Assembly: GCF_000772955.1 (NCBI RefSeq)
Contig: NZ_JPVO01000053.1
Coordinates: forward strand, 62,001-126,000
Origin: Ureibacillus sinduriensis BLB-1 = JCM 15800
GTDB taxonomy: Bacteria; Bacillota; Bacilli; Bacillales_A; Planococcaceae
Direction of reading: 5' to 3'
DNA length: 64,000 nt
The position numbers were made by a program, and so were the translations under genes. Position 1 is the stretch's first letter. Each line of letters begins with the position of its first letter. Of the stretch, positions 13,072-51,622 are shown in pieces. The notes under the pieces are model-generated. The model searched no databases and was not told the origin of the DNA. It saw nothing but the letters and a program-made list of their open reading frames with translations.

Positions 13072-13274
13072 AAAAAAGTGTGGACAAAGTCGATCTTCGA
13101 CTTTGTCCACACTTTTTTTAGGCTATTTCCTACAATAAAAAATTACCCAGACGTCTTGAAAACGCTTGGCAGACAAGGCGGGCAGTCGAGTGAAGACCCG
13201 AATAGAACTGGACGTTCATGAGGGGACGAGCGAGACAACCAACGCAGGATGAAAGACTTTGTCAACAGTCTGAA
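13072..13274 (+). repeat. Repeat element, copy A (terminator hairpin plus conserved body)
   Basis: The first part is an almost perfect hairpin: AAGTGTGGACAAAGTCGA and its complement around TCT, with T7, so it also terminates proS. The body (13120-13274) is about 155 bases and closely matches copy C: TTGAAAACGCTTGGCAGACA, GGCGGGCAGTCGAGTGAAGA, CATGAGGGGACGAGCGAGAC and CAACAGTCTGAA. The outer arms CAGAC (13148-13152) and GTCTG (13268-13272) pair. It starts directly behind proS and shares its orientation. Confidence 0.85.
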
Positions 13275-13283
13275 CACTGCTCC

Positions 13284-13541
13284 CTCTCTAAAAGACAAAT
13301 TCTATTGAAGCAAGAAAAAGTTGTCCAATAGAAGAGGTCAAAGAGAGGGATTTCTAAGGAACAAAGGGATACTTGTCCAATAGGGGCTCTCTAAAAGACA
13401 ATTTTCTAAAAAACTCGGAAAACGTGTCCATTAGACGGTTTCAAAAAGACAAATTCTGCTGAACCAAGAAAAAGTTGTCCGATAAAAGGGCTCAAAAAGA
13501 CAGATTTTTAAGAAAAAAAGAAAATTTGTCCAATAGGGGCA
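13284..13541 (+). repeat. Five degenerate tandem repeats of about 51 bases
   Basis: Five units start near 13284, 13338, 13388, 13441 and 13491. Each carries a version of AAAGACAAATTCT, then an A-rich middle, then GTTGTCCAATAGGGGCTC. Within a unit GACAA and TTGTC can pair. Units differ by substitutions and one- to three-base indels. No open frame of note crosses them. They lie directly after repeat copy A. Their function is unknown. Confidence 0.8.
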
Positions 13542-13613
13542 CTCATAATAGAGGAAACAACGATAATAGCTATCTTGAAGTTTGGTCAAGATTCACTCAA
13601 ATAAACTCCTGAA

Positions 13614-13640
13614 AATATCCACCCAGCTGGGGTGGATATT
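13614..13640. terminator. Bidirectional hairpin
   Basis: AATATCCACCC and GGGTGGATATT form a perfect 11-base stem with a five-base loop, AT-rich on both sides. It looks like a terminator, but no gene abuts it; it may mark the end of a lost gene. From 13641 to 13850 I see nothing definite. Confidence 0.55.
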
Positions 13641-13852
13641 TGAATCCATACTATAGGCTCATTCTCTTAGCAGAGGGAATAAATTAAAGACATGATCAAT
13701 GATTCTAATCTTTCTTGTGTCATGATTATCAGCTCCCTTTAGTTGAAAAAATGACTTTCCTGCAAAGAAATGATGGGTTTAATAATAGTATGAACTACAC
13801 AGCTTAGTTTGCTTCTTGTAATAAATTACATACATTCATAGTGGAGTAAAAT

Positions 13853-13885
13853 AAAAAAAACACCTTATCATCATAGATGAAGGTG
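13853..13885 (-). terminator. Rho-independent terminator for the cation exporter
   Basis: On the minus strand ACACCTTCATC pairs with GATAAGGTGT around a short loop and is followed by TTTTTTTT. It lies about 20 bases after the stop of the exporter gene. Confidence 0.8.
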
Positions 13886-13905
13886 TAAGTATATCAATCT
13901 TAATC

Positions 13906-14838
13906 TTAGTTATATGAATTGCATCGATGATGTTCATATTGATCGAGTTGTGCATTGGCACGCTCAACTTGGATGGTAGCATGCTCGATATGAAAATCAT
14001 CATGCAAAATTCTCAAAGCTTCTTTCATCACTTTGTCATGTTCATTGCGTAAAATTTCTAAATGGCAGCTGACGGCAGGGAAGTCAGAACTAATGCTCCA
14101 TACATGAAAATCATGTATTCCAACAACCCCTTGAATATTTAGTAATGCATCCCGAATTTGCTTCACATCGATGTTCATCGGTATCCCTTCCATCAAAATG
14201 TGGAAGGAAATAGTTGTTATTTCAAATCCGTTTCTTAAAATAATGATCGAGATAAGGAGACTTGCGATTGGATCTGCAATTGACCAACCGAATAATAATA
14301 TTAGAATCGAGGCAATAATGGCACCGACAGAACCTAGCAAATCCCCTAGAACATGCATAAATGCAGCCCGTACATTGATATTTTCGCTTGTATCCGCTCG
14401 TGTTAAAATAAATGCGACAATAATATTTACAATAGCACCGGTTACCGCTACTGCCAGCATACCTAAACTTGAAATTTCCTCCGGATTCGCAAGTCTTTGC
14501 AATGCCTCGAAAATGATGATGAGAGCAATCACAACTAGTAAAATACCATTAAATAGGGCAGCTAGTATTTCCAATCGTTGATAGCCGAAAGTCATTTGAC
14601 TATTGACAGCTTTTTCCCCCAATTTAAAAGCCAGCAATCCAATACCCAATGACAATGCATCACTAAGCATATGCCCAGCGTCTGATAAAAGGGTTAAGCT
14701 ATTGGTTATTAAACCGCCGATAAAGACGACCAGTACAAATGAAGCAATGATGAAAAAGCTGATCAATAGCGCCTTTTTGTTTTTTGAATGATGATGGTTA
14801 TGAGAATGAGAATGAGAATGAGAATGAGAATGAGCCAT
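13906..14838 (-). CDS. Cation diffusion facilitator, CzcD/ZitB-like metal exporter
   Basis: 310 residues, usual for CDF proteins. It exports Zn, Cd or Co in exchange for protons across the cytoplasmic membrane. Six membrane segments lie between about 24 and 205, with metal-site pairs D53/H56...D60 in SDAGHMLSD and H162...D166 in HVLGD; a C-terminal cytoplasmic domain (VGIHDFHVWS) follows. The N-terminus is a His-Ser repeat encoded by a six-base DNA repeat, a likely metal-binding tail. It is a single gene with no metal regulator beside it and its own terminator. Confidence 0.92.
   Translation of the reverse strand: MAHSHSHSHSHSHNHHHSKNKKALLISFFIIASFVLVVFIGGLITNSLTLLSDAGHMLSDALSLGIGLLAFKLGEKAVNSQMTFGYQRLEILAALFNGILLVVIALIIIFEALQRLANPEEISSLGMLAVAVTGAIVNIIVAFILTRADTSENINVRAAFMHVLGDLLGSVGAIIASILILLFGWSIADPIASLLISIIILRNGFEITTISFHILMEGIPMNIDVKQIRDALLNIQGVVGIHDFHVWSISSDFPAVSCHLEILRNEHDKVMKEALRILHDDFHIEHATIQVERANAQLDQYEHHRCNSYN
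14802..14834. repeat. Hexanucleotide repeat in the exporter N-terminus
   Basis: Five tandem GAGAAT units encode alternating His and Ser on the minus strand. Slippage would change the number of His-Ser pairs without breaking the frame. Confidence 0.85.
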
Positions 14839-15067
14839 TAATAATCCTCCAATTTAGTTTTATTGTAGAGGGGAATAGTAGCTGATTCTGGTTTGTAGTT
14901 GTCCGCTCTTCGAAACGTGATTGACGTTATTTATAAAAGGTATTCGTTTATTAGGCCTTGTATGACTATTTAATAGAATTTAGTAGCACAATAATTTTAT
15001 CAATAATTTTATATACCATATTAAAGCTGAAGTTTACTAGAGCTGTCATATCATTTAAATAGAAAAA

Positions 15068-15087
15068 GACCTAATCTTGATTGGGCC
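15068..15087 (-). repeat. Direct repeat flanking element E, downstream copy with T-tract
   Basis: On the minus strand this reads GGCCCAATCAAGATTAGGTC followed by TTTTTCT, so it is a working-looking terminator for serC. A second copy is at 15283-15304, on the other side of element E. Confidence 0.8.
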
Positions 15088-15279
15088 CTGACTGTTGAAA
15101 AACGATTTCATCCTGTATTGGTTGTCTCCAGTCCTTCCTGAACGGTTTCTACTATTCGTGTTTTCACTCGCTGCTTGTGTAGTTGTGAAGCGTTATCAAG
15201 ACAGGCTGTAACACTTTCGTTTCGGGAATAACATAAAAAAAGGTGTAGACATTGTCGAATATCGACTTTATCTACACAC
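15088..15279 (-). repeat. Repeat element, copy E (minus strand)
   Basis: Read on the minus strand it begins with a hairpin (arms GTGTAGATAAAGTCGAT and its near-complement, then T7) and continues with a diverged body: CTGTCTTGATAACGCTT, GCGAGTGAAAACACGAATAG, GAGACAACCAATACAGGATG and CAACAGTCAG. It lies behind serC in the same orientation and is bracketed by direct repeats of the serC terminator hairpin. The gap from 14839 to 15067, upstream of the exporter, shows nothing else that I recognise. Confidence 0.8.
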
Positions 15280-15282
15280 TAA

Positions 15283-15304
15283 GACCGAAGATCTTGATTG
15301 GGCC
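15283..15304 (-). repeat. Direct repeat flanking element E, upstream copy
   Basis: Shares ATCTTGATTGGGCC (plus strand, 15291-15304) and an offset GACC with the copy at 15068-15087. On the serC side it has lost the T-tract. It sits 15 bases after the serC stop codon. Confidence 0.75.
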
Positions 15305-15319
15305 ACTTCAATCATACGG

Positions 15320-16414
15320 TTATGAATTTTTGTTTTGGAAAGCGACCATGAAATCTGCAAGTGCTTTACATGTTTCATATGGTACTGCATTATACGTTGA
15401 AGCACGGCAGCCTCCTACAGAACGGTGGCCATTAAGCCCGATGAAGCCCGCTTCTCTTGCCTCGGCTAAGAATTGCTTTTCAAGATTTTCATCACTGACT
15501 CGGAAAGTGATATTCATTAATGAACGTGACTCAGAATGAGCATGTCCATAATAGAAGCCGTTGCTGCAATCTATTACATCATAAATCAGTTTTGCCTTTT
15601 CCTCATTATTGCTTTCAATAGCTTCAAGGCCACCTTTTTCTTCTACCCATTTCAAAACTTCACCTAGCATATAGATGCCAAAAGTCGGGGGAGTATTGTA
15701 TAGAGAATTGGCTTCGGCATGTGTTGAATACTTTAATAAAGTTGGAATGTTGGTGTTTGCTTTTTCAAGTAAGTCTTTGCGAATGATGACCACCGTCACA
15801 CCGGAAGGTCCGAGGTTCTTTTGAGCTCCGGCATATATGATACCAAAGTTGCTTACATCCACTGGCTTGGAAAGAATGTCACTTGACATATCTGCGACTA
15901 GTGGAACTCCGCCGGTTTGAGGGAAATCCTTCCACTGAGTACCATAAATTGTATTATTCGAAGTGATGTGAACGTAAGAATCTGTTTGGCTGAATTGAAT
16001 TTCTTCTAATGCTGGGATATTTCGATAGTCGTTATCCTTTGTGCTAGCGGCCTCCCGTATTTGCCCAAAAAGTTTCGCTTCTTTGAAGGCTTTTTCAGAC
16101 CAAGACCCAGTTAAAATATAACTAGCGGTTTGATCACTGTTAAGGAAGTTCATAGGCACCATGGTGAACTGTAAACTGCCACCGCCCTGTAAAAATAGTA
16201 CCTCGTAATTATCAGGAATCGAATATAGAGACTTTAGACGAGCGATTGCATCATTATGTACAGCTTCATAATCCTTGCTGCGATGGCTCATTTCCATAAT
16301 GGACATCCCAGAGTGATTATAATTCACAAGTTCTTCTTGTGCTTTCTGTATAACTTCAATAGGTAGAGCAGATGGACCGGCATTAAAATTGTAAGCACGT
16401 TTTGTTGAATTCAA
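15320..16414 (-). CDS. serC: Phosphoserine aminotransferase
   Basis: 364 residues. A PLP enzyme that converts 3-phosphohydroxypyruvate and glutamate to phosphoserine in serine synthesis. Family signatures: YNFNAGPSALP at the start, GMSIMEMSHRSK, FLQGGGSLQF, and IYAGAQKNLGPSGVT with the PLP lysine; RSVGGCRASTYNA near the end binds the phosphate. I prefer the TTG at 16414, eight bases after AGGGAG; a GTG at 16423 overlaps that site. No serA is nearby. A weak CodY-like match (AATTTTTAGACATTT at 16504) lies upstream. Transcription runs into repeat element E. Confidence 0.95.
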   Translation of the reverse strand: MNSTKRAYNFNAGPSALPIEVIQKAQEELVNYNHSGMSIMEMSHRSKDYEAVHNDAIARLKSLYSIPDNYEVLFLQGGGSLQFTMVPMNFLNSDQTASYILTGSWSEKAFKEAKLFGQIREAASTKDNDYRNIPALEEIQFSQTDSYVHITSNNTIYGTQWKDFPQTGGVPLVADMSSDILSKPVDVSNFGIIYAGAQKNLGPSGVTVVIIRKDLLEKANTNIPTLLKYSTHAEANSLYNTPPTFGIYMLGEVLKWVEEKGGLEAIESNNEEKAKLIYDVIDCSNGFYYGHAHSESRSLMNITFRVSDENLEKQFLAEAREAGFIGLNGHRSVGGCRASTYNAVPYETCKALADFMVAFQNKNS

Positions 16415-16730
16415 ATAGAACACTCCCTGTAAAAGTTAATAAATTAATATATTGATTATATACCTTTTTTTCGCGAATGGATTTGATTTTTGTAAAAATG
16501 ATGAATTTTTAGACATTTTGCATTGCCAAGTCAATCTAGTTAGAAAAATTTGCTGAAACGCTACATTAGATTTTGAGAACTTTCCGCTTATGACCTAACT
16601 CACCTTGAAAAGATGACATTTAATACGGTATAGAAATCTCGTTCAGATTCTAGCGAAAATCGCAGTAACAATGAATCCTGAAATTTATAATAGATTTTCC
16701 AAAATGTCCATAGCATAATTTTTGGTTCGG

Positions 16731-16739
16731 CATAAAGTA
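16731..16739 (+). promoter_or_regulatory. Candidate sigma-K -10 for the first YjcZ-type gene
   Basis: CATAAAGTA fits CATA-N3-TA and sits about 15 bases before the ribosome site. No good -35 is seen. The rest of the 16415-16769 gap holds the serC leader and nothing else recognised. Confidence 0.35.
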
Positions 16740-16769
16740 TAAATATCTGAATGGAAAGGGGGTAAAGAC

Positions 16770-16925
16770 ATGGGATACTCTAGCAACGTAGGTGGAGTAG
16801 GCGACTACTGTAATGGTGGTAATAGCGGTGGTTATGGCAACGGCAGCGGTTTTGCATTACTTGTTGTTCTGTTCATTCTTTTAATCATCGTTGGGGCTTC
16901 ATTTTTTAACGGTGGAAGTTACTAA
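16770..16925 (+). CDS. YjcZ/SscA-type small sporulation peptide (51 residues)
   Basis: A tiny protein with a Gly/Tyr/Asn-rich head and one membrane-like segment, FALLVVLFILLIIVGASFF. This is the tiny-transmembrane family of Bacillus (YjcZ type; SscA of B. subtilis is a spore assembly factor). AAAGGGGG precedes the ATG at 16770. It is too short for routine gene finding. A second member follows at 17215 with nearly the same membrane segment, so this is a local duplication. Likely made in sporulation; membrane or coat location is inferred. Confidence 0.85.
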   Translation: MGYSSNVGGVGDYCNGGNSGGYGNGSGFALLVVLFILLIIVGASFFNGGSY

Positions 16926-17063
16926 TCTCTTATTTTAAGGTACTCTAGCTGAATAGGTGCCTTTGTGGAGTAAATTCGCAGTATTACCAATTGTCTACTG
17001 TGGATGGTGTCTGTACTTTTTCCGAATTCTAGGTATTCTCTTTTTACAATAATGCCTGGAAAT

Positions 17064-17106
17064 AAATGTAGGGAATGTCGATTATCGACTTCTCTACATT
17101 TTTACT
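17064..17106 (+). terminator. Terminator hairpin after the first YjcZ-type gene
   Basis: AATGTAGGGAATGTCGA pairs with TCGACTTCTCTACATT (one bulge) around TTA, followed by TTTTT. Its TGTCGA..TCGA core resembles the hairpins that begin repeat elements A-E, but no element body follows. Confidence 0.7.
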
Positions 17107-17176
17107 TTCCTTAAGAATAATTTTTATTTGATAACCAAAAACGGTACATTTGTCCCTGTCACAATGAAGGGATCGA

Positions 17177-17185
17177 CATAAATTA
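17177..17185 (+). promoter_or_regulatory. Candidate sigma-K -10 for the second YjcZ-type gene
   Basis: CATAAATTA fits CATA-N3-TA about 20 bases before AGGAGG. The -35 spacing to the nearest AC is short, so this is a weak call. Confidence 0.3.
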
Positions 17186-17214
17186 TAGTATATTGAACAA
17201 AGGAGGAGAAAGTT

Positions 17215-17319
17215 ATGTATTGCAACGCAGGCTATTCTAAAAATAACAGCGAGTTTGTTTTAATCGTTGTACTATTCATTCTTTTAATTATTGTTGGTGC
17301 TTACTACTTCAATAACTAA
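17215..17319 (+). CDS. YjcZ/SscA-type small sporulation peptide (34 residues)
   Basis: 34 residues: a short polar head, MYCNAGYSKNNSE, then FVLIVVLFILLIIVGAYYF, nearly the same membrane segment as the gene at 16770. AAAGGAGGAG lies a few bases before the ATG. Tiny-transmembrane (YjcZ) family. Terminators on both sides make it a monocistronic unit. Cys3 may be relevant to coat cross-linking, but that is a guess. Confidence 0.85.
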   Translation: MYCNAGYSKNNSEFVLIVVLFILLIIVGAYYFNN

Positions 17320-17340
17320 TAGGATTGCTCCAAATGTTGA

Positions 17341-17385
17341 AAAGTGGACTTTAAAGCGATTGAGCTTTAAGGCCCACTTTTTTTA
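17341..17385 (+). terminator. Rho-independent terminator
   Basis: AAAGTGG-ACTTTAAAGC and GCTTTAAGG-CCCACTTT pair with a small mismatch around a short loop, followed by T7. Confidence 0.8.
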
Positions 17386-17554
17386 TTGTCACTAAAACAA
17401 AAGTATTACTTCGAAACAGAGTTACGTAGAATAAATGAAATAAAAGAAGAGGACTTAAGGAAATATCGAATATCAATTACTTATTTATCCTTGAAATAGA
17501 ATTATTTTCAATTACAATAAAGGTGCAATCAATATTAGTTAAAGGGGCACTTAA

Positions 17555-19852
17555 ATGGGGAACGAAACGGAAAAGCGAATCGAAAAGCTGGAAGCAGAAG
17601 TTCGAGAGCTGCGTTTAGAATTGAATGAATTAAGGGGGAAGGATAATAGTATACACAATGCAGAAATTCTTGCGGGTGAAATGCCATCGCCAAAAATTAC
17701 CCGTGAAGAAGATGATCATTCGATCAAACTAATTAAGTCAGAAAATCAAACAGAGGAATTGCCAACAATAAAAAAGACTCGTGAAGAAGAGAGTCATTTG
17801 GTCAAATTAAACAAGGCTGAAACTCAATCGTTTCAAACAACTTCAGCAAAAGCGGGCTTTGAAGAAGAGAATCACTTGGTCAAATTGAATAGGGTGGCGT
17901 CCACAAAAAATGAACCGATGATAAGTAGGACGAACGACGAAGTGGAGCTGGACCAAACAAAAACACCTCAGAAACAACGGAGTTTCGAGGAAATCATACT
18001 ATGGTTACTACCAAAAGTCTTTATGCTAATTCTTGTTCTCGGTGTACTTTGGGGACTAAAGGTTATCAGCGATATTGGGTTATTCTCGAATGTATTAAAA
18101 ATTGTTTTGGCGTACTGTCTATCCGTTGGTTTAATTATTACAGCCACGTTAATGGATCAAAAAAGGCCGGAATCCTCACAGATTTTTACAATCGTGCTTT
18201 ACGGTGGGGCATTTATTATTGGAATACTAACAACAGCAGCAGGAGCTATCCTCTATGAAGTAATCGGTTTATATTTATCGTTACTTTTAGCTCTAGTTTA
18301 TATTGCTTATGGAATTGCCATTTGTTACGTTAAGAAAAATGAAGTTCTATCAATTTTCGTCATTTTCACTTCATTGTTATTGCCTTACTTATTAGAATAT
18401 ATGGATTTCAATGGAATGATTATTTTACTGTATATCCTTTTAGTATATGGGTCCATGCAAGTTATCTTTATCAAACACGTTCAGTCGATTGCCATGTACA
18501 TTTCATACTTCTTCTCGATCACGGCAGTTCAAATTGTTTGGGGTCTAAATGATGATAATGCACCACTGTATGTCTTAAGCTGCATCCTTTTGAATGTCAT
18601 ACTACTTCTCGTTTGGTGGCATTTTTATAAGCCGTTGAGTAAATTCAGGACGATTCACGAAGGCTTGCTATTTAGTTTAAGTGGACTGACGGTTCTCATG
18701 ATTAATGTAATAGCCGACGACTCCGCGCTGCCATTATTGCTTATGGCAGTCATTTATGGCAGTTTGGCGTTATTTGCATATCGACGCAGTGAATTAAGGG
18801 TCGTCGATATTGCTGGTACCCTCGCACTATTAATTGTTTTCAATATCATCATGGTAATCAATGCGATTGACCATCTGGAAATGATATTATTGCCATTGAG
18901 TGCATTCCTTGGTTTAATGGTTTCACTAAGGCTGGGTGCCAAGTTAATGAAAATTACTTATACTGTATTATTTAGTTTTTTTGTAATGATTCATCTATTA
19001 TTTGAAGAAATCGAGCCATTTTGGACTTTGGAACACTTAAATCATTTATTTATATTTATGTATTTAATCGCTTTATTCATCTATTTAAAGAAGCGATCCA
19101 AAGTAAAATTATCTGATGATGGAAAAGCCCAGCTGAATTTCACGTTGGATATTTTCCCAATTCTCTTGGCCACTTATTTCTTCTACTATGTATTTAAATT
19201 TGACATTACCTATCTATCAAATGATAATCATGCCTATTTAACTGCATTGGTACTTGCGTTTGTCATGCTGGTCTCATTGTTTGTTTCCGAAAAAATAATT
19301 GGCAGGGGACTTCGATACATCCTGATTTTCGCATTTTTACTTTCATTTATCACACTCATTCCGACTCATTTTGTGGAAGGGTTGGATATTTGGTTGAATC
19401 TAATCGTGCGAGTAATCTATACACTAATTCTCCTGGCAATAGTTGCGGATATTTATATGCAAGGATACTTATACCGAACTTGGATCTCGCAATTGAAAGT
19501 GGATGTGGAAGTTCTTTTAATAGTAGGGATACTGGGTTCAACACTGCTTGGCTACTCGATATTAAGTCAAACCTTATTTGATGGGTTAATCAGTTCGTTG
19601 CTTGTCGTTACGGGTAAAACTCTCCTTCTTTTCCTCACAGCGAGTCTCTCTCTTTGGATGAGTACGACGGGCAGCTATAGAAAAGTGAAAATTATGGGTT
19701 ATTGTATTCTGGCGGTAGCTATATTCAAACTTGTGTTCTCGGATCTCGCTTCTTTAAATCTAATCATCCGAGCTATATTATTCATGATTATTGGTGGGCT
19801 CGGACTATTCTTGTCAAACCGGCTTCTTTCGAGTAATAACGAAAAGAAATGA
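17555..19852 (+). CDS. Large polytopic membrane protein, DUF2339-like
   Basis: 765 residues. Residues 1-30 form a short coiled coil (EKRIEKLEAEVRELRLELNELRG). Residues 48-113 contain three imperfect copies of a unit like REE-x2-H-x2-KL-x-K. From about 148 to the end there are some 20 hydrophobic segments. This layout matches the DUF2339 family, whose function is unknown. The start ATG lies behind AAAGGGGCAC, a modest site. It is followed at 75 bases by the SDR gene on the same strand, without a terminator in between, so the two may be co-transcribed. Confidence 0.75.
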   Translation: MGNETEKRIEKLEAEVRELRLELNELRGKDNSIHNAEILAGEMPSPKITREEDDHSIKLIKSENQTEELPTIKKTREEESHLVKLNKAETQSFQTTSAKAGFEEENHLVKLNRVASTKNEPMISRTNDEVELDQTKTPQKQRSFEEIILWLLPKVFMLILVLGVLWGLKVISDIGLFSNVLKIVLAYCLSVGLIITATLMDQKRPESSQIFTIVLYGGAFIIGILTTAAGAILYEVIGLYLSLLLALVYIAYGIAICYVKKNEVLSIFVIFTSLLLPYLLEYMDFNGMIILLYILLVYGSMQVIFIKHVQSIAMYISYFFSITAVQIVWGLNDDNAPLYVLSCILLNVILLLVWWHFYKPLSKFRTIHEGLLFSLSGLTVLMINVIADDSALPLLLMAVIYGSLALFAYRRSELRVVDIAGTLALLIVFNIIMVINAIDHLEMILLPLSAFLGLMVSLRLGAKLMKITYTVLFSFFVMIHLLFEEIEPFWTLEHLNHLFIFMYLIALFIYLKKRSKVKLSDDGKAQLNFTLDIFPILLATYFFYYVFKFDITYLSNDNHAYLTALVLAFVMLVSLFVSEKIIGRGLRYILIFAFLLSFITLIPTHFVEGLDIWLNLIVRVIYTLILLAIVADIYMQGYLYRTWISQLKVDVEVLLIVGILGSTLLGYSILSQTLFDGLISSLLVVTGKTLLLFLTASLSLWMSTTGSYRKVKIMGYCILAVAIFKLVFSDLASLNLIIRAILFMIIGGLGLFLSNRLLSSNNEKK

Positions 19853-19926
19853 TAAGAAAATTCACACAATAAGATTCATTTCTTATATAATTTAGCTATT
19901 CATGATTATTAAAGGAGATATGGTAT

Positions 19927-20709
19927 ATGGAACTGGGACTAAAGAACAAAGTGGCAGTAATTACTGGGGCAAGTAAAGGAATCGGATTGTATACCGCTTT
20001 ACAGCTAGTTAAAGAGGGAGCAAAAGTTGCGATTGCTGCTAGACATAATGATACTTTGGAGGAAGCGAAAGCATTTATTCGTGAACAAACCGGAGAAGAG
20101 ATTCTGACAGTTTCAGCAGATGTGTCCATCGAGAAGGAATGTGAAAGACTAATTGAAGAAGTAGTTGCTCATTTTGGTAAGCTAAATATCGTCATTAACA
20201 ATGCCGGTACTTCGTCAGCCAATTCATTCGAAGATGTGGAAACGGATTTATGGCACTCTGACTTGAATTTGAAGTTATTCGGGGCCATCCATTGTTCGAA
20301 ATTTGCGCTTCCTTATTTAAAGGAACAGAATGGTGGATCGATTATTAACCTTACTGCAGTCTTGGCTAAAACGCCTCCTGCACAAAGTTTGCCAACCACG
20401 GTTAGCCGTTCTGCCGGCCTTGCACTGACAAAAGCGATGAGTAAAGATTTAGGTAAATATAATATACGAGTCAATTCGGTATGTATTGGTTTGATTCGAA
20501 GCCGACAAATCGAAAGCAGATGGCAGAATGAAATGCCGGAAGCTACTTGGGAAGAGTATTCCAGGGAAGTAGGGAAAATGATTCCTCTAGGCCGGATTGG
20601 CAATACAGAAGAAGCAGCAAATGTTATAGCCTTCTTAGCATCAGATGCCGCATCTTATGTATCGGGCACAGCCATCAATATAGATGGCGGGTCGGGTTCT
20701 GCTCTATAA
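19927..20709 (+). CDS. Short-chain dehydrogenase/reductase family protein, catalytic triad replaced
   Basis: 260 residues with the full SDR frame: cofactor motif TGASKGIG (13-20), NNAG (91-94), PLGRIGNTEEAANVIAFLASD and the closing SGTAINIDGG. The usual Ser-Tyr-x3-Lys triad is absent: the Tyr-Lys region reads T157-T-V-S-R161, and the Ser position is Ala144. It therefore probably binds NAD(P) but may not act as a normal dehydrogenase. I recall related Bacillus SDRs with a similar (S/T)-V-x-R segment, so this is a family trait rather than a decayed gene. AAAGGAG precedes the ATG. Confidence 0.82.
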   Translation: MELGLKNKVAVITGASKGIGLYTALQLVKEGAKVAIAARHNDTLEEAKAFIREQTGEEILTVSADVSIEKECERLIEEVVAHFGKLNIVINNAGTSSANSFEDVETDLWHSDLNLKLFGAIHCSKFALPYLKEQNGGSIINLTAVLAKTPPAQSLPTTVSRSAGLALTKAMSKDLGKYNIRVNSVCIGLIRSRQIESRWQNEMPEATWEEYSREVGKMIPLGRIGNTEEAANVIAFLASDAASYVSGTAINIDGGSGSAL

Positions 20710-20715
20710 GCCAAA

Positions 20716-20753
20716 ATAATAATCCTGTTTGTGAACAAGCAGGATTATTTATT
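20716..20753 (+). terminator. Rho-independent terminator
   Basis: AATAATCCTGTTT and AAGCAGGATTATT pair with one G-T contact, followed by TATTTATT. Confidence 0.75.
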
Positions 20754-20952
20754 TATGTTTAAATGGTTACATATTTATATACCTTAATTAGCTATATCTT
20801 GTTCAAATAGTGTTATGATAACTATAAAGGGAAATAAAAATGAAACTTTTTTACTTATTATTCGTATGGTTTTTATAAGCATTATATGGACATGAGGATT
20901 GTAATGTTATTTTGCCTTTTAAAAACTTATTTATATGGAACGGGGGATTTCA

Positions 20953-22101: not shown

Positions 22102-22103
22102 GC

Positions 22104-22146
22104 AAAATAGATTACCTTTCACTAAAAAGTGAAGGTAATCTATTTT
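22104..22146. terminator. Bidirectional terminator between telA and cotD
   Basis: AAAATAGATTACCTTTCACT and its complement form a near-perfect stem, A-rich before and T-rich after, serving telA on the plus strand and possibly cotD on the minus strand. Confidence 0.85.
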
Positions 22147-22186
22147 CTTTTGGAAAAAATAGTTTAGTTTTGCTAAAGATTATCGA

Positions 22187-22576: not shown

Positions 22577-22602
22577 AAACTTTACCCTCCTCTTTTTCGG
22601 AA

Positions 22603-22611
22603 TATCTTATG
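22603..22611 (-). promoter_or_regulatory. Candidate sigma-K -10 for cotD
   Basis: On the minus strand CATAAGATA fits CATA-N3-TA, 27 bases before the cotD start. No clear -35 AC is seen at the expected distance. The remaining bases up to 22880 are AT-rich leader of the cupin gene with no other recognised element. Confidence 0.4.
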
Positions 22612-22880
22612 CATTACTAATCTATTCAAAAACAAGAATTGGAACTAGATAAATACCTATTATCGAGTAAGAAGTTTATAAGTAGAGTGATTATTTACGG
22701 TACTTAATGTCTTTGTTTTGAAAATATACGAGAACTTTAATTGATAAATTACATAATATAGATGGAGGAAGTCGGGCTAATGTCATGTATCGGAATTGTA
22801 AAGAGGTGCCTTACTCTAAAGTGTCTGTTTGCTTTTCGAGGGGCATGATATCTCAAAAACAAAAGAAGGAGTAAAAACAG

Positions 22881-23507: not shown

Positions 23508-23521
23508 ACCAAAAGGCATGG

Positions 23522-23546
23522 GACATGGGGGACCATGTCTTTTTTG
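23522..23546 (+). terminator. Rho-independent terminator
   Basis: GACATGG (23522-23528) and CCATGTC (23533-23539) form a tight stem with a four-base loop, followed by T6. Confidence 0.8.
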
Positions 23547-33994: not shown

Positions 33995-34037
33995 GTGTAG
34001 GCAAAGTTGACATTCCGCTTTGCCTGCACGTTTTTTT
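33995..34037 (+). terminator. Terminator between ccdB and ccdC
   Basis: GTGTAGGCAAAG (33995-34006) and CTTTGCCTGCAC (34018-34029) form a 12-base stem with one G-T pair, then G and T7. The sequence is close to the hairpin that starts repeat elements A-E, but no body follows. Confidence 0.85.
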
Positions 34038-36771: not shown

Positions 36772-36774
36772 CTG

Positions 36775-36979
36775 TGTGTAGGCAATGTCGATATTTGACA
36801 ACGTCTACACATTTTTTTGGGGGGTTCTTTCTATAAATGAAAGATTATTACCCAGACAGTCGAGGAAACGCATCGGATACAAGATGGACAAGTAAGTGTA
36901 GTCCTGACTAGTGAGATGTTTGTGACGGGGTGGATCGTGACAACCAACGCGAGATCCAAGCGTTTATCAACAGTCTGAA
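36775..36979 (+). repeat. Repeat element, copy B
   Basis: It starts with a hairpin (GTGTAG...CTACAC with TGTC/GACA core) and a T7 run at 36812. The body is the most diverged copy in the middle, but its ends are clear: ATTACCCAGAC at 36848-36858 and GCGTTTATCAACAGTCTGAA at its end. Outer arms CAGAC/GTCTG and AAACGC/GCGTTT pair. It lies about 40 bases after the Sco-like gene in the same orientation. From 36980 to 37100 nothing else is seen. Confidence 0.75.
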
Positions 36980-40425: not shown

Positions 40426-40438
40426 AAAAATCTAGAAG

Positions 40439-40463
40439 AGCCTAGCTTAACATAGCTAGGCTT
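40439..40463 (+). repeat. Direct repeat left of element C (hairpin)
   Basis: A 25-base sequence with arms AGCCTAGCT and AGCTAGGCT, a terminator-like hairpin without a T-tract. It recurs at 40666-40690 with one mismatch. Confidence 0.85.
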
Positions 40464-40466
40464 CAG

Positions 40467-40666
40467 CGTTTAGACAAAGTCGATCTTCGACTTTGACTAA
40501 ACGTTTTTTTAGGATTTTTCCTTCAATGAAAGTTTATCCAGACTGTCTTGAAAACGCTTGGCAGACAAGGCGGGCAGTCGAGTGAAGAGATGAATAGAAC
40601 AAAACGTTCATGAGGGGACGAACGAGACAACTAACGCAGGATGAAAGCGTTTGGCAACAGTCTGAA
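40467..40666 (+). repeat. Repeat element, copy C
   Basis: The hairpin has arms CGTTTAGACAAAGTCGA and its near-complement, then T7. The body is nearly the same as copy A. Its ends form the clearest stem of the family: CAGACTGT (40539-40546) with ACAGTCTG (40657-40664), and AAACGCTT (40552-40559) with AAGCGTTT (40645-40652). An inner hairpin CGTTC/GAACG lies in between. It follows the 35-residue peptide gene in the same orientation and is bracketed by direct repeats. Confidence 0.88.
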
Positions 40667-40690
40667 GCCTAGCTTAGCATAGCTAGGCTT
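40666..40690 (+). repeat. Direct repeat right of element C (hairpin)
   Basis: Same 25-base hairpin as at 40439-40463, one substitution, here followed by TATTAATT. The rest of the gap up to ilvD (40691-41071) holds the ilvD promoter region. Confidence 0.85.
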
Positions 40691-42742: not shown

Positions 42743-42814
42743 TTCATCTGATTAAAGTTTTAATCGTATAATTGATTAAAGTGATGCTTATAAAGTTGTA
42801 AATGAATAGATTGA

Positions 42815-43160
42815 ATTCGATGATGAGGTAAAAGGGTATAGAGCCTTGTATCTACCAGAGAGTCGGTATTGCTGGAAGCCGACGATACAACTATATTCGA
42901 CATCCCCTCGGAGTGAGCTATTAAACGCTTAAGCCATTAGATAGCTCCGGGCATATTTCGAAATGCTCGTTATCAATGAATAGTCTGCCTAATCTGGTTG
43001 CATACTGAATTTTTTATCTATTTAAAATGTTCAGTACAGATAGGTAATCCTGCTATTCACGAGGTAGCTTTTTAGCTATGAACAAGGGTGGTACCATGAA
43101 AGTCTTTTTCATCCCTACGTAAAGGTTTTCTTTGCGTTGGATAAAAGGGCTTTTTTATTT
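42815..43160 (+). promoter_or_regulatory. T-box leader (isoleucine) controlling ilvB to leuD
   Basis: AGAGAGTCGGTA and GCTGGAAGCCGA mark the upper stem I. The specifier is probably ATC (Ile) at 42902-42904: GAGG (42825-42828) pairs with CCTC (42906-42909), leaving the codon and one base in the loop. The T-box core GGTGGTACCATG is at 43087-43098, with TGGT at 43089-43092. The terminator runs from about 43099 to 43159 (CGTAAAG/CTTTGCG inside ATCC/GGAT) with T6. Uncharged isoleucine tRNA would switch the operon on. Confidence 0.9.
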
Positions 43161-43187
43161 TTCTAAGATTAAGGGAGGAGTTAACAA

Positions 43188-44960
43188 ATGGCTGCTAACG
43201 TATCCACAACAAATGAAAAAACAGATAAAACTGAAACAAGTCAAATGCATAGTGAAGAAAAAAATAAACCGAGAAACGGTGCAGATATTTTAATTCAAGC
43301 ACTGCATGATCAAAATGTCGACATTGTTTTTGGTTATCCTGGTGGTGCCGTCCTGCATGTATATGATGCACTGTACAGAAATCCAATACGGCATATTCTT
43401 ACACGTCATGAACAAGGTGCAATCCATGCAGCAGAAGGTTATGCCCGTGTTCTAAATAAAACGGGGGTTGTCATCGCAACGAGCGGTCCCGGTGCTACAA
43501 ACCTCGTAACAGGGATTGCAGATGCGATGATCGATTCAATTCCATTGGTAGTTTTTACTGGCCAAGTAGCTACACACGTTATTGGTTCAGATGCATTCCA
43601 GGAAGCGGACATCATGGGCATTACGACACCCATTACGAAGCATAATTATCAAGTCCAAGATGTAAACGACATTCCGAGGATTGTTAAAGAGGCATTTCAT
43701 ATTGCAAACAGTGGCCGCAAAGGTCCTGTCTTGATTGACTTTCCTAAAAATATATCCGCTTCGATCTTCGATGAGGCATTGGCCGAAGCAAATAGGGAAG
43801 AAGAATTATATTTACCGGGTTACCAGCCGAATATAAAGCCAAATTTCCTGCAAATTCAAAAAGCAATCCAGGCTATCGGCGGCTCAAAACAACCATTGAT
43901 TTTAGCAGGCGCAGGTGTTTTATTTGCAGATGCACGTCATGAATTAACTGAATTTGCTGAAAAGTACAAATTACCTGTTATCAACACATTGCTCGGTTTG
44001 GGAAGTATCCACGGACAACATGAATTAAACTTTGGAATGGCAGGAATGCACGGCGCTGCTGTTGCAAATGATGCGATACAAAAAGCGGATCTGCTCATCA
44101 ATATCGGAGCCAGGTTCGATGATCGTCTCACAGGGGATACAAAGCTATTTGCTCCAAAAGCAACCATCATTCATATTGATATCGATCCTGCTGAGATCGG
44201 CAAGAATATACCAACCGATATACCAATTGTTGCCGATGCGAAAGAAGCTTTAAAAGCCCTTTTAAAGAATGATTTTGATGGACCGGATACGTCGGAGTGG
44301 TTATCTTACTTAAACGAAAAACAACAAGACACTCCTTACTGGTATGTAGAGGATGAAAATGAAATTTTGCCGCAGCAAATCATCGAGATGGTCCACTCCA
44401 TCACTAATGGGGATGCAGTAGTAACTACCGATGTAGGTCAGCATCAAATGTGGGCTGCTCAATATTATAAATTGAATCATGATCATCAATGGGTTACTTC
44501 CGGAGGGCTTGGAACGATGGGCTTTGGCTTCCCAGCCGCAATTGGTGCTCAATTTGCCAAACCTGATAAAAAAGTAATTACGTTTTGTGGTGATGCCGGC
44601 TTTCAAATGACGCTACAAGAACTTGCTTTGCTAAATGAATATAACTTGCCGGTAAAAGTTGTCATTGTCAACAACGGTGCACTTGGCATGGTGCGCCAAT
44701 GGCAAGAATTATTCTATGACGGACGCTATTCCCAAAGTCTAATGCCGGTTCAACCAGACTTCGTTAAATTAGCAGAAGCTTATGGAGTAAAAGGTTACCG
44801 CATTAACACGATGGAAGAAGCACAATCGATTTTGGAAGAGGCATTAAATTCTGATGAGCCTGTAGTGATTGATGCACGAGTGAAACAATTAGAAAACGTC
44901 TATCCAATGGTACCAGCAGGAAAATCTCTGGATGATATTGTAGGGGTGAAGAAATTTTGA
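43188..44960 (+). CDS. ilvB: Acetolactate synthase large subunit
   Basis: 590 residues. A thiamine-diphosphate and FAD enzyme that joins pyruvate to pyruvate or 2-ketobutyrate, the first common step to Val, Leu and Ile. Seen: [30 protein letters not shown] with the catalytic Glu, [11 protein letters not shown] and GDAGFQM-type ThDP motif. The first about 28 residues are a polar extension ([18 protein letters not shown]). GGGAGGAG precedes the ATG. First gene of the T-box operon; overlaps ilvN by four bases. Confidence 0.97.
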
Positions 44961-45472
44961 AACGAGTGATAACAGTTACGGTTTTAAACCAAAGCGGTGT
45001 ACTAAACAGAGTGACGGGTCTTTTGATGAAACGTCAATTTAATATTGAATCAATCACGGTTGGTCATACAGAACAAATAAATATATCAAAAATGACGTTT
45101 GTTGTCCACGTTGCAGATGAAACAAAGCTGGAGCAGTTAATCAAGCAATTATCCAAGCAAATTGATGTCTTGAAAGTAAACGATATTACTGAAAAATCAA
45201 TTGTTTTAAGAGAATTAGCCTTAATTAAAGTTGTTTCTCCGGCTAATCTCAGAAATGAAATGAACTCCATCGTGGATCCTTTTAGACCACAAATTGTTGA
45301 TACTTCCAAAAATTTTGTCACCTATCAAGTAGTCGGTCAACCTGACAAAATCGATGCTTTTATTGAATTGATTCGACCGTATGGCATCAAGGAGCTGACT
45401 CGAACAGGTGTTACGGCATCTGTTCGTGAAACTCAACCAGTTGAAACACCGCAACTTTCTATTCTTAAGTAA
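44957..45472 (+). CDS. ilvN: Acetolactate synthase small (regulatory) subunit
   Basis: 171 residues. The N-terminal ACT domain ([30 protein letters not shown]) gives feedback control by valine; the C-terminal half is the activation domain ([16 protein letters not shown]). Starts with TTG 44957, inside the ilvB stop (TTGA overlap), so it is translationally coupled to ilvB. Also called ilvH in B. subtilis. Confidence 0.95.
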
Positions 45473-45558
45473 CTGTTACTTAATTGATAGTTAGGATATA
45501 TCGATGACACGTTTTACAGCGTGTTATCTAGCATTAAAAAAATAGAACCCAATATTAG

Positions 45559-46583
<1,025 letters not shown>

Positions 46584-46584
<1 letters not shown>

Positions 46585-48128
46585 TGCGCAAGATTGATAT
46601 TTTTGATACAACGCTGCGTGATGGAGAACAATCAGCCGGCATTAACTTGAATACAGCAGAGAAAATTGAGATTGCCAAGCAACTGGAACGCCTAGGTGTC
46701 AGTATTATTGAAGCAGGATTTCCAGCAGCAAGCCCGGGCGATTTCGAAGCGGTCAATAAAATTGCAAAAACAGTAAAGAATTCCATTGTTACTGGTCTTG
46801 CACGCTGTGTGAAAAGTGATATTGATGCCACTTGGGAAGCGATAAAAGAAGCCGAACAACCTCATATTCATGTATTTTTGGCGACAAGTCCGATTCATAT
46901 GGAATATAAATTGAAAAAATCGCCAGACCAGGTTGTCGAACAAGCGGTTGAAGCTGTGAAGTATGCAAAGAAATTGTTCCCGCTTGTTCAATGGTCTGCC
47001 GAAGATGGGTTCCGCTCAGACCGGGAATTTTTAGTCCGCATTATTGAAAAAGTCATTGAGGCTGGAGCAACAACAATCAATGTGCCTGATACTGTTGGCT
47101 ATGCATCACCACAAGAGTATGGAGAACTTTTCAAATTCTTGCGTGAAAATGTCCATGGTTCAGAAAAAGTGAAGTTTTCGGCACACTGCCATGATGATCT
47201 AGGAATGGCTGTAGCCAACTCAATTGCTGCGATTCAAAATGGTGCTGACCAGGTTGAATGTACAATCAATGGGATTGGGGAACGTGCCGGTAATGCGTCA
47301 TTAGAGGAAATCGGTGTTGCCATGCATATAAGAAATGATTTCTACCAAGTGGAAACTGGATTGAACCTTAAAGAAATCAAACGAACTTCCCAATTGGTCA
47401 GCAGATTAACGGGCGTTGTCATTCAGCCAAATAAAGCGGTAGTAGGGAAAAATGCCTTTGCACATGAATCAGGCATACACCAAGATGGTGTCCTGAAAAA
47501 TAAAGAAACTTATGAAATTATATCACCTGAACTAGTCGGAGAAGCTGAAGTTCCTTTAGTGCTGGGTAAACACTCCGGTCGCGCTGCATTCCGCGATCGC
47601 GCCGAAAAAATGGGCTTTGACCTATCGGACGAAAAACTAAATAAAGCCTTCCAGGAATTCAAAAAACTAGCTGACCGCAAAAAGGAAATTACGGAAGTAG
47701 ATTTAATGACATTACTGACGGAGCAGCAGGTTTCCGTCGAAGATGTGCCATTATTCGAATTGAAATCAGTTCAAGTTTCTTATGGTACAGAAAATATTCC
47801 TACCGCGACTGCTTCTGTAGTAACGCCGGAAGGAGAGTTGAAAACTTTGGCTGCCACTGGTTCCGGATCAGTCGAAGCAATTTGCAATACACTTGAGCAA
47901 TTGGTGAATGGCACAGTCAATATCCTAGATTTCCGTGTGAAATCGGTAAGTAAAGGTAGAGATGCGCTTGGGGAAGCAGTCGTGAATTTACGATACAACG
48001 GCTATACCTCAACTGGTCGTGATGCTTCTCAGGACGTTCTTGAAGCAACCGCGAAGGCGTATTTAAATGCCATCAATCGCCATCTTATTCAAGAAAGCAT
48101 TCGAGGAAAACAAACTGCAGAGGTCTAA
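46584..48128 (+). CDS. leuA: 2-isopropylmalate synthase
   Basis: 514 residues. Condenses ketoisovalerate with acetyl-CoA, the first step specific to leucine. Seen: [29 protein letters not shown], metal site [25 protein letters not shown], and a C-terminal regulatory domain from about 390. Starts with GTG 46584, sharing one base with the ilvC stop. Leucine feedback through the C-terminal domain is expected from the family. Confidence 0.96.
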
Positions 48129-48208
48129 ATCGATTGTCTCTAGTAAGACAAGGGCTGTTGATTATCGAATTTGCTATAAAGAATTTTGAATTCAATTAAA
48201 AAGGAGAC

Positions 48209-48240
48209 GCCATCAAAGATTAAGCTTTGATGGCATTTCT
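48209..48240 (+). terminator. Hairpin between leuA and leuB
   Basis: GCCATCAAAG (48209-48218) and CTTTGATGGC (48225-48234) form a perfect ten-base stem with a six-base loop, followed by ATTTCTTTC. In an operon this may be a weak terminator or an mRNA processing/stability site that separates ilv-leuA from leuBCD expression. Confidence 0.65.
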
Positions 48241-48286
48241 TTCAACTAACATTTTAGCGATAAAGCAAAGAAGGGTGTTGTTGCAG

Positions 48287-49384
48287 GTGGAAAAGAAAAT
48301 AACGGTACTTCCTGGAGACGGTATTGGACCAGAGGTTGTTGCAGCTGCGGTAAGAGTCTTACAAGTCATCGCAAAAAGATACAAACATGATTTCCAACTG
48401 GGTTATGCAGCAATCGGTGGAGCGGCAATCGACCAATTCCATGATCCACTTCCGGAAGAAACGATTAAAATGTGCAAAGAAAGTGATGCCATTCTTCTAG
48501 GAGCGGTAGGAGGTCCGAAATGGGATAACAATCCTGCTGAATTACGTCCTGAAATTGGTTTGCTTCGAATTCGTAAAACCTTTGACTTATATGCAAATTT
48601 GAGACCGGTTAAGGCATTCCCGAGCTTGCTTGATGCCTCTCCATTGAAGCGCGAAGTGGCAGAACATGTCGATTTAATGATTGTGCGCGAACTGACTGGA
48701 GGTATCTACTTCGGTGAAAAAAACCGAACTCAATCAGAGGCAAGTGATTTGAACGTATACACTCGGGAAGAGATTGAACGAATTGTTGATAATGCATTTG
48801 CTCTGGCAAAAGTACGAAAAGGGAAGCTTTGCTCTGTTGATAAAGCAAATGTTCTGGAAACTTCCAGACTGTGGCGTCAAATTGTAGAAGAGAAAAAAGT
48901 TCAATACCCGGAAGTGACAGTCGAACATAATTTGGTTGACTCTGTTGCAATGAAGTTGATAACAAATCCAGGGCATTATGATGTTGTGGTAACAGATAAT
49001 ATGTTCGGAGATATCTTGAGTGATGAAGCTTCTGTTATTACCGGCTCACTGGGAGTGTTGCCTTCTGCATCCATTCGCAGTGATAATTTTGGACTTTATG
49101 AGCCTGTTCATGGTTCTGCTCCTGAAATCGCAGGCGCAGGAATTGCAAACCCAGCAGCGACCATTCTTTCCGTTGCAATGATGCTAAGGTATTCTTTTAA
49201 TCTTCAAGATGAAGCGGCAGAAATTGAACGTGCCGTAAGCAGTGTATTTGATGATGGCTACTTCACAGCTGATTTAGTGAAAGATAAAGCCCGCGCATTA
49301 ACGACAGATGAATGGACGGATAAAGTGATCGCTGAGATTGATACAAATTTTGTCGCAGATAGTATTATGGAATCTTATATTTAA
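48287..49384 (+). CDS. leuB: 3-isopropylmalate dehydrogenase
   Basis: 365 residues, as in B. subtilis LeuB. NAD-dependent oxidative decarboxylation in leucine synthesis. Seen: ITVLPGDGIGPEVV, LLGAVGGPKWDNN, LRIRKTFDLYANLRPVK, ELTGGIYFG and the NAD region HGSAPEIAGAGIANP. I choose GTG 48287; the frame is open upstream to 48227 through the hairpin, but the family start is at VEKKITVLPG. The ribosome site (AAGGGTG) is moderate. Confidence 0.95.
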   Translation: MEKKITVLPGDGIGPEVVAAAVRVLQVIAKRYKHDFQLGYAAIGGAAIDQFHDPLPEETIKMCKESDAILLGAVGGPKWDNNPAELRPEIGLLRIRKTFDLYANLRPVKAFPSLLDASPLKREVAEHVDLMIVRELTGGIYFGEKNRTQSEASDLNVYTREEIERIVDNAFALAKVRKGKLCSVDKANVLETSRLWRQIVEEKKVQYPEVTVEHNLVDSVAMKLITNPGHYDVVVTDNMFGDILSDEASVITGSLGVLPSASIRSDNFGLYEPVHGSAPEIAGAGIANPAATILSVAMMLRYSFNLQDEAAEIERAVSSVFDDGYFTADLVKDKARALTTDEWTDKVIAEIDTNFVADSIMESYI

Positions 49385-49400
49385 GGGTTGGTGAAGGTAA

Positions 49401-50810
49401 ATGGCAAAGAATATCATAGAAAAAATTTGGGATTCACACATCGTCCATCAAGAAGCTGGGAAACCGGACTTGCTTTATATTGATCTTCATCTAATTCATG
49501 AAGTTACGTCTCCTCAAGCTTTTGAAGGACTTCGTTTAGCGGGGCGTAAAGTGCGTCGGCCAGATCTTTGTTTTGCAACGATGGACCATAATGTGCCAAC
49601 AAAAAATCTGCCGATCATTAATGACCCGATTGCGAAAAAACAAATTATGACATTAGCTGAAAATGCGAAAGAATTCGGAATCCAGCTTGCTGATATGGGA
49701 CATCCAGATCAAGGTATTGTACACGTGATTGGGCCGGAGCTAGGGTTGACGCAGCCTGGTAAAACAATCGTTTGCGGAGACTCACATACTTCAACCCACG
49801 GTGCTTTTGGCGCTTTGGCCTTTGGTATCGGAACTTCGGAAGTTGAACACGTATTATCTACTCAAACGTTATGGCAAACAAAGCCGCCAACAATGGAAAT
49901 CCGTGTGAATGGCAAATTGGGTGTCGGTGTCTCAGCGAAAGACATCATTTTGGCGATTATCGCCAAATGGGGGATTGGTGTAGGTACCGGTCACATAGTT
50001 GAATATACGGGCGAGGCAATACGCAGTCTGACAATGGAAGAACGAATGACTATCTGCAATATGTCAATTGAAGCAGGGGCAAAAGCAGGACTGATATCGC
50101 CAGATCAAACAACTGTGGATTTCATTCGAGGCCGCCGTTTCGCTCCAAAAAGCGAAAACTTTGAAACAGCAGCCAATTACTGGCTAAGTTTGGCTTCGGA
50201 TGAAGGTTGTTCATATGATGTGGTGCTGGAAATCGATGCATCGGAAATTGAACCGATTGTTACTTGGGGAACAAACCCTTCAATGGGTTCTGGTGTTTCG
50301 AAAACTGTTCCATCAGCGGCAGATTTTGAATCGGAATCAGATAAAGCTGCACTGCAAAAAGCACTCTCTTATATGGGATTAAAAGAAGGGCAACCTATTT
50401 CTTCTATTGAGATACAACATGTATTTATCGGTTCGTGCACAAACTCTCGCCTATCGGACTTGCGTACGGCTGCAAGTATAATAGAAGGAAAAAAAGTGGC
50501 TCCGGGTGTGAAAGCGATCGTGGTACCTGGCTCTTACTCAACAAAAGCAGCAGCTGAAAAAGAAGGGCTGGACAAAATATTCTTGGAAGCCGGCTTTGAA
50601 TGGCGTGAATCAGGTTGTTCCGCATGCCTTGGAATGAACGAAGATATAGTTCCTTCAGGGGAACGTTGTGCTTCTACATCCAATCGTAACTTCGAAGGTC
50701 GCCAAGGTGCTGGGGCACGTACACATTTAGTTAGTCCTGCTATGGCGGCAGCCGCCGCTATCGAAGGTCACTTTGTCGACGTACGCAATTATGCAACTCA
50801 AGAAGTTTAA
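49401..50810 (+). CDS. leuC: 3-isopropylmalate dehydratase large subunit
   Basis: 469 residues. Iron-sulfur aconitase-fold enzyme that isomerises 2- to 3-isopropylmalate with LeuD. Cluster cysteines lie in [12 protein letters not shown] and [29 protein letters not shown] is the family signature. GGTTGGTGAAGG precedes the ATG. 16 bases after leuB, 20 before leuD. Confidence 0.97.
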
Positions 50811-50830
50811 GAGGGTAGGAGTGAGGATAA

Positions 50831-51424
50831 ATGGAACCTATTAATATTGTGAATAGTATTATTACACCGTTAGATCGAAAAAATGTCGATACAGACCAAA
50901 TTATTTCGAAAGAATTTTTAAAACGAATCGAACGTACCGGTTTTGGTCGTTATTTATTCCATCATTGGCGATTTGATGAAGATGGCAAACCGAATGCAGA
51001 TTTCGTTTTAAACAAACCAGAATATAAAGGTTCACAAATACTTGTTGCGCAAGATAACTTTGGTTGCGGTTCATCGAGGGAGCATGCGCCGTGGGCTATT
51101 TTGGACTACGGATTCCGGGTGGTAATAGCGCCAAGTTTTGCGGATATTTTCCATAATAATTGTTTCAAGAATGGAATTTTACCTATCAAGTTATCAGAAA
51201 CCGAGTGTGATGAACTTCTGGCAAAAGGACTACAAACTCCTTATAATGTGGAAGTCGACTTGGAGTCCCAAACTGTAACGGCATCAGATGGGAAAGTTTA
51301 TCGTTTTAACATCGATCCTTACTACAAACAAATGCTTCTAAATGGCTGGGATGAGATTTCACTTACTTTCCAATATGAGTATCAGATTAAAGCGTATGAA
51401 GAAAAACGGATTGTATTTCAATAA
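50831..51424 (+). CDS. leuD: 3-isopropylmalate dehydratase small subunit
   Basis: 197 residues, the swivelling domain partner of LeuC. Seen: [20 protein letters not shown], and the substrate loop [28 protein letters not shown] precedes the ATG. Last gene of the operon; repeat element D starts six bases after the stop and provides a terminator. Confidence 0.97.
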
Positions 51425-51430
51425 ATTAGA

Positions 51431-51622
51431 GTGTAGACAAAGTTGGTATTCCACTTTGTCTACACGTTTTTTTAGGTTATTCTCCTAAATGTATGATTAC
51501 CCAGATTGTTTTGGAGATGCTAGGCAGGAAAGGAGGTCAGTCGAGTGAAAACCCGAATAGAATAAAACACACGGGACGTACGAGACAATCAACCAATATG
51601 AAAGCGTATTCAACAGTTTGAA
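51431..51622 (+). repeat. Repeat element, copy D
   Basis: The hairpin GTGTAGACAAAG (51431-51442) / CTTTGTCTACAC (51454-51465) is followed by G and T7, so it ends the ilv-leu transcript. The body is shorter and diverged but keeps GATTACCCAGATTGT, CAGTCGAGTGAA, CCCGAATAGAA, and CAACAGTTTGAA. CAGATTGT (51502-51509) still pairs fully with ACAGTTTG (51613-51620) through two G-T contacts, although both arms have changed from copy C. Same orientation as leuD. Confidence 0.82.

Follow-up and report, generated by a model that had tools for sequence, protein, structure and literature searches.

A terminator-associated mobile element family of probable IS1182 type in Ureibacillus sinduriensis and an RNA fold found also in T-box leaders

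Element copies in the window and in the genome

The DNA analyzed in this study (the window; 64,000 nucleotides, contig NZ_JPVO01000053.1, positions 62,001 to 126,000) belongs to the genome of Ureibacillus sinduriensis BLB-1 (= JCM 15800; 4.02 Mb, 55 contigs; G000, where G and L numbers denote genomes and loci) and contains five copies, A to E, of a repeated element of approximately 200 bp, at the positions and on the strands given by the original prediction, which had been made from the sequence alone (Table 1). Copy A starts 7 bp 3' of the stop codon of the open reading frame (ORF) at 11630-13066, and copy E starts 2 bp 3' of that of the ORF at 50831-51424. Each element extends from a CAG, or a decayed form of it, on the 5' side of a hairpin to a CTG, i.e., it starts slightly before the hairpin at which the original prediction had placed its beginning. 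The left-end sequence, CAGAGTGTAGACAAAGTCGA, makes up one arm of this hairpin, which is followed by a T-run in a structure resembling an intrinsic terminator, and the right end, read inward as CAGACTGTTGACAAACGC, is the 3' arm of the 128-nt rod that forms the body. An element of this length has no room for a transposase gene of its own. The body-end arms that the original prediction had paired do exist, with some copies interchanged: CAGACTGT/ACAGTCTG and AAACGCTT/AAGCGTTT, quoted for C, are those of D, C having CAGACAGT and AAACGCAT, and the outer-stem arms said to keep their pairs through G-T contacts in D (CAGATTGT/ACAGTTTG) belong to E.

No Rfam family matched the window at gathering score, in agreement with the earlier view that the copies belong to no recognized family; a permissive Rfam scan of copy D gave a single match with an E value of 4.5, and the comparison of D with plasmids and phages gave no match. 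With copy C as the BLASTN query, 40 matches including itself were found in the whole genome, and a profile search of loci fetched around terminal-repeat matches yielded 48 distinct matches of at least 60 bits, i.e., copies A to E and 43 more, which is not an exhaustive count and bears out the expectation of many further copies. The family is patchy: three surveys found it in 29 of 101, 21 of 121, and 54 of 261 genomes. Shortened copies with a common internal deletion occur at L035, L040, and L044 of G000, where the model is matched to position 107 and again from position 164, and L108 of G004 (the same place as L254) is a short form without the left hairpin, in which the T-rich stretch of the element directly follows the host hairpin. 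At 33995-34036 of the window, a hairpin and T-run like those of the left end (GTGTAGGCAAAGTTGACATTCCGCTTTGCCTGCACGTTTTTT) stand alone with no recognizable body.

Table 1. Positions of the element copies, their parts, and the duplicated host hairpins in the window
Feature	Position	Strand	Remark
Copy A, element	13074..13272	+	First CAG decayed to AAA
Copy B, element	15088..15281	-	
Copy C, element	36772..36977	+	
Copy D, element	40464..40664	+	
Copy E, element	51427..51620	+	
Left-end hairpin and T7 of A	13078..13119	+	Own terminator
Left-end hairpin and T-run of C	36776..36817	+	
Left-end hairpin and T-run of D	40468..40509	+	
Left-end hairpin and T-run of E	51431..51472	+	
Body (rod fold) of A	13147..13273	+	
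Body of B	15087..15209	-	
Body of C	36852..36978	+	
Body of D	40538..40665	+	
Body of E	51501..51621	+	
Host terminator hairpin at D, left copy	40439..40463		Flank comparison; single at empty site
Host terminator hairpin at D, right copy	40666..40690		Flank comparison
Host hairpin at B, one copy	15066..15087		Flank comparison
Host hairpin at B, other copy	15282..15304		Boundary uncertain by one base

Two further repeats were observed in the window: degenerate repeats with a spacing of approximately 51 bp (TTGTCCAATAG...) at 13287-13544, immediately 3' of copy A, and a 56-bp direct repeat (16844-16899 and 17247-17302) with 80% identity, its units starting 403 bp apart.

Target hairpins and IS1182-family insertion sequences

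The elements sit in intrinsic-terminator hairpins, and the two flanks of a copy are copies of each other that fold as hairpins. These flank hairpins, absent from the original prediction, are the most telling part of the locus. In the window, the duplication is clear at B and D, and in G000 the left-versus-right flank score exceeds the 99% point of mismatched pairs (2256 mismatched flank pairs; largest mismatched score, 14) in 31 of 48 copies. The flanks of D are matched in several relatives, and the same gene junction in all four examined (G004, G005, G008, and G015) is an empty site, where the hairpin is single and the element missing. At least one neighboring ORF ends towards the element in 47 of the 48 copies, the gene end being faced by the left end in 38 and by the right end only in 9; in this survey no ORF next to copy D passed the cut-off. 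Relative to the neighboring genes, copies occur in both orientations.

The same right-end pattern was found in Bacillus timonensis, Bacillus sp. HNG, Lysinibacillus fusiformis S4, L. odysseyi, Ureibacillus aquaedulcis, and a Lysinibacillus metagenome-assembled genome (33 stretches over all hosts). In named Bacillales, 22 of the 32 loci have a flank repeat score of at least 19; 4 of these overlap loci fetched earlier. With a model trained on element bodies only (R1), B. timonensis gave 38 matching places and Bacillus sp. HNG gave 18. G073 belongs to another family of the class; of its 11 copies, 9 are flanked by clean hairpin repeats, the exceptions being L325, which has no repeat, and L327, where the match is its own left hairpin.

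A comparable arrangement is seen in insertion sequences (ISs) of the IS1182 family. Their terminal inverted repeats (CAGACTGTAGACAAAG/CAGATTGTCGACAAAA) are similar to those of the element (CAGAGTGTAGACAAAG/CAGACTGTTGACAAAC) without being identical. The genome of U. sinduriensis carries four degenerate IS copies (L056, L058, L059, and L060) with a like left end and flanking hairpins, and intact copies are present in its relatives; the 454-amino-acid transposase of G020 scores 474 bits against NF033551 (cut-off 270) and has the domains PF13751, PF05598, and PF01609. Elements and ISs are found together in the complete genome G005. Among 44 IS loci examined (L097-L100 and L177-L216), 34 have a whole-hairpin direct repeat of 20-35 bp on both sides, i.e., 32 in the first set, of which 31 are free of mismatches, plus L210 and L211. 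Nine ISs of equal length in G005 each have an exact flank repeat, whose sequence and loop differ between loci. Both bounds of the repeat coincide with the stem foot or lie only a few bases from it, and its length therefore follows the hairpin. Three of six plasmid ISs show the hairpin repeat (L270, L272, and L273), and L271, L274, and L275 show none.

The body fold and its counterpart in T-box leaders

The alignments support selection on the 128-nt body as a structure. RNAalifold gave no structure for the body alignment with default scoring; with RIBOSUM scoring it gave the rod of 42 pairs used on alignment A1 (62 bodies, aligned without structure), and the A1 counts were therefore made on the alignment that yielded the structure. 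On A1, 90.2% of cells are paired, compared with 31-38% when the partners are slid, and 61 cells have a double change, compared with 19.4 in shuffles and 19-30 in slid controls; pairs with a double change number 16 against 10.0 shuffled, with a slid range of 13-20, so this last measure does not favor the rod. In a second alignment of 85 matches from more genomes (A2), which was built to fit the structure and is biased in its favor, double changes are present in 31 of 42 pairs (17-24 slid) and in 321 cells (83 shuffled, 40-82 slid). Changes of the G-T kind exceed those of the A-C kind, in the alignment (118 against 62 cells; 21 against 13 columns) as well as on a tree of 61 element rows, drawn without 15 rows from T-boxes and 9 others that are decayed or carry inserts (70 against 35 changes; 20 against 11 columns). 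Of the selection at the RNA level that had been proposed, structural selection on the body is supported by covariation and the G-T excess; selection on RNA and on DNA is not fully separated, because in DNA hairpins, too, G-T is more stable than A-C. Folded as single sequences, the bodies of D and E are better than shuffles (z = -2.65 and -2.42), and those of A, B, and C are no better (z = -0.98, +0.40, and -0.88). The Bacillaceae-1 RNA (RF01690) was observed inside the apical part of the fold at L284 (1550-1614; G024) and, by eye, at L359 and L367; the glyS T-box copies of G018 and G011 have, by eye, look-alike inserts at the same apical position.

Besides G000, there are 12 genomes in which R1 has exactly one match, and in 10 of them, namely all eight of the genus (G001, G002, G003, G006, G007, G013, G019, and G020) plus G054 and G110, this match is inside a T-box leader; those of G038 and G104 are outside T-box leaders. 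At 13 of the 19 loci in the first locus set, an antiterminator sequence follows the fold by 8-12 nt on the same strand (9 glyS, 2 valS, and 2 alaS). With L336, seven new genomes from 9 of 17 loci (two genomes having already been counted), and six of another 17, the fold lies 8-12 nt 5' of an antiterminator in 27 genomes (12 glyS, 12 valS, and 3 alaS), in which the genes at L358 and L367 are putative assignments from the likeness of the leader. Rfam detected a T-box in all 12 such loci scanned, 5 of them above gathering and the glyS ones below, and the uncut matches are 338-490 nt long for 219 model positions, i.e., the Rfam model does not include the fold. Among the 24 T-box matches in G000, one holds the fold, namely the leader of glyS, whose 66.4 bits fall short of the 93-bit cut-off. 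In tandem, the fold was observed in three copies at L358 (G017) and in two each at L359 (G018) and L336 (G059), and at L371 (G038) a single copy outside a T-box stands just 5' of a gene starting MSLRSNRVAEQMKKELGEIIGR, which we take to be rbfA. T-box matches below gathering occur in the window itself at 11124-11362 (82.8 bits) and 42811-43119 (75.1 bits).

Conversely, a model trained on the T-box copies (R2) finds the mobile elements at up to 118.8 bits; overall, 54 of the 261 genomes searched from the order have R2 matches. Hairpin repeats flank 6 of 8 R2-found loci outside T-boxes in one set; in a second set of 11, the repeat is clear in L374 only and doubtful in L373. As each model detects the other group, the similarity is taken as homology, which suggests that the element body and the T-box domain share ancestry. 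In a tree of 128 columns without an outgroup, for which the program warns of few columns, 14 T-box rows form one clade (support 97/98), and the valS row L283 lies outside it with weak support; the tree does not tell the direction of exchange. Judging from its position, the fold probably replaces Stem III of the leader, which a review describes as variable in stem and loop and as indispensable (PMC7583486). The account of pneumococcal repeats in PMC3049150 mentions a BOX element joined to T-boxes, which is a precedent. No report of the present T-box domain was found in open-licence papers.

Origin of the copies and comparison with known systems

CAG...CTG-type ends, the left-end hairpin, a terminator target at gene 3' ends, and the whole-hairpin repeat are common to the element and the IS1182-family ISs, and copies A to E are very probably non-autonomous DNA transposons of IS1182 type (miniature inverted-repeat transposable elements; MITEs). 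The short mobile element with its own terminator, one of two possibilities in the original prediction, is well supported by terminal repeats, hairpin target duplications, an empty site, and a plausible autonomous partner. In the mechanism that we propose, the IS1182-family transposase would recognize its target as a hairpin or extruded cruciform and join the element ends to both 5' feet of the stem-loop, and repair would then copy the complete hairpin to both sides. Transcription could still stop, and insertions would be cheap to the host because the left end is a hairpin with a T-run and each flank keeps its hairpin. For an element equipped with a terminator of its own, terminators would be a niche of almost no cost. 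With complete-hairpin duplications of stem-loop length (20-35 bp), target choice by structure can be tested directly. It is also likely that, together with this stem-loop-duplicating transposition, one RNA domain is common to a mobile element and a riboswitch. Either a MITE that seeks terminators hit the hairpin of Stem III in T-box leaders of aminoacyl-tRNA synthetase genes, where the MITE body was kept as a new Stem III, or a T-box domain was captured by an IS1182 element and would have become the body of a MITE now present in several Bacillales families. Within this MITE family of IS1182 type with duplicating hairpin insertion, the RNA domain shared with T-boxes is the more unusual part.

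Several observations weigh against the IS1182 assignment. No intact IS1182 copy is present in G000, where none of five transposase pieces is above the family cut-off, and a related transposase was detected neither in B. timonensis, whose MITE copies look the most recent, nor in the MITE-carrying G004; both are draft assemblies, which is itself no proof that a transposase was missed. An intact partner in every genome with recent copies, which is unnecessary for membership, was thus not found, and this lowers the certainty. The MITE ends are similar but not identical to the IS ends, and the MITE body is not homologous to the IS. The hairpins on the two sides differ at three IS loci (L098, L201, and L205), which could be a result of recombination between copies, and 7 of the 44 IS loci have a hairpin on one side (L204 and L208) or no hairpin repeat (L212-L216, five broken or more distant loci). 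The flank-scoring script detected no hairpin repeat in 17 of the 48 MITE copies in G000, including A, C, and E; three of the 17 (L035, L037, and L040) were mis-framed because of internal deletions and show the repeat by eye. In addition, nine or ten further genomes, as well as G038 and G104, have the fold as a single copy with neither a recognized T-box nor repeated hairpins, which may be decayed MITEs or a further setting.

The undetected transposase in B. timonensis and G004, the unrelated body, and the nonidentical ends would suit a MITE that duplicates hairpins and is moved by a transposase outside the IS1182 group found here; such a mover is improbable, since MITE and IS1182 copies agree in end type, left-end hairpin with T-run, target, and whole-hairpin duplication, coexist in the complete genome G005, and, in the form of degenerate ISs, also in G000. 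Much less credit is due to a host-owned 3' untranslated region RNA family, the other possibility of the original prediction, in which terminator and body would stabilize mRNAs or make small RNAs. The covariation of the body, the excess of G-T over A-C changes, and the location after gene ends are in its favor, whereas the occurrence in both orientations relative to genes, the target duplications, the empty site, the patchy distribution, and, in forward-oriented copies, the placement of the element's terminator ahead of the body count against it. Inverted repeats are prone to template switching and some flanks are imperfect, so that the paired hairpins might have arisen by template switching or by terminator duplication around older repeats; this is the least credible explanation, as the nine equal-length ISs of G005 have exact repeats, each of a different sequence and loop, and the empty site of D has a single hairpin.

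Group IIC introns likewise insert after terminator hairpins; no group II intron matched at Rfam gathering, and the elements described here have both terminal inverted repeats and target duplications. REP/RAYT elements, whose partner is a Y1 transposase, were a further reading considered. T-box leaders (RF00230) contain a fold homologous to the MITE body in 27 glyS, valS, and alaS leaders, and the MITE itself is no T-box, as RF00230 has no match at gathering in the window; one domain is common to the element and some leaders. Pneumococcal BOX, RUP, and SPRITE are presented in the relevant sections of PMC3049150 as short interspersed structured repeats, SPRITE being terminator-like and near gene 3' ends, with target duplications that could not be established. 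Compared by description, the present family differs from them in having hairpin duplications and an IS1182-type partner. The closest likeness is to IS1272 and TnSha1, also of the IS1182 family, whose targets, in the passages of PMC4923244 and PMC5678879 on insertion, are inverted repeats including terminators, entered in both orientations without sequence specificity, the hairpin being removed or replaced with no target duplication. Furi and colleagues describe the blunt deletion of terminator hairpins by TnSha1 (PMC4923244), and Wan and colleagues draw hairpin duplication as one of the three branches of their model and argue that IS1272 removes the hairpin (PMC5678879). In open-licence papers, whole-terminator duplication by IS1182 elements was found only as this model branch, and it is to one branch of the published model that the stem-loop-length duplications point. 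In contrast to the removal described for IS1272, the target hairpin is kept here on both sides of the MITE or IS and is single at the empty site; the whole hairpin is duplicated, and the inserted DNA includes a MITE with its own body, whereas the known cases are ISs and composite transposons.

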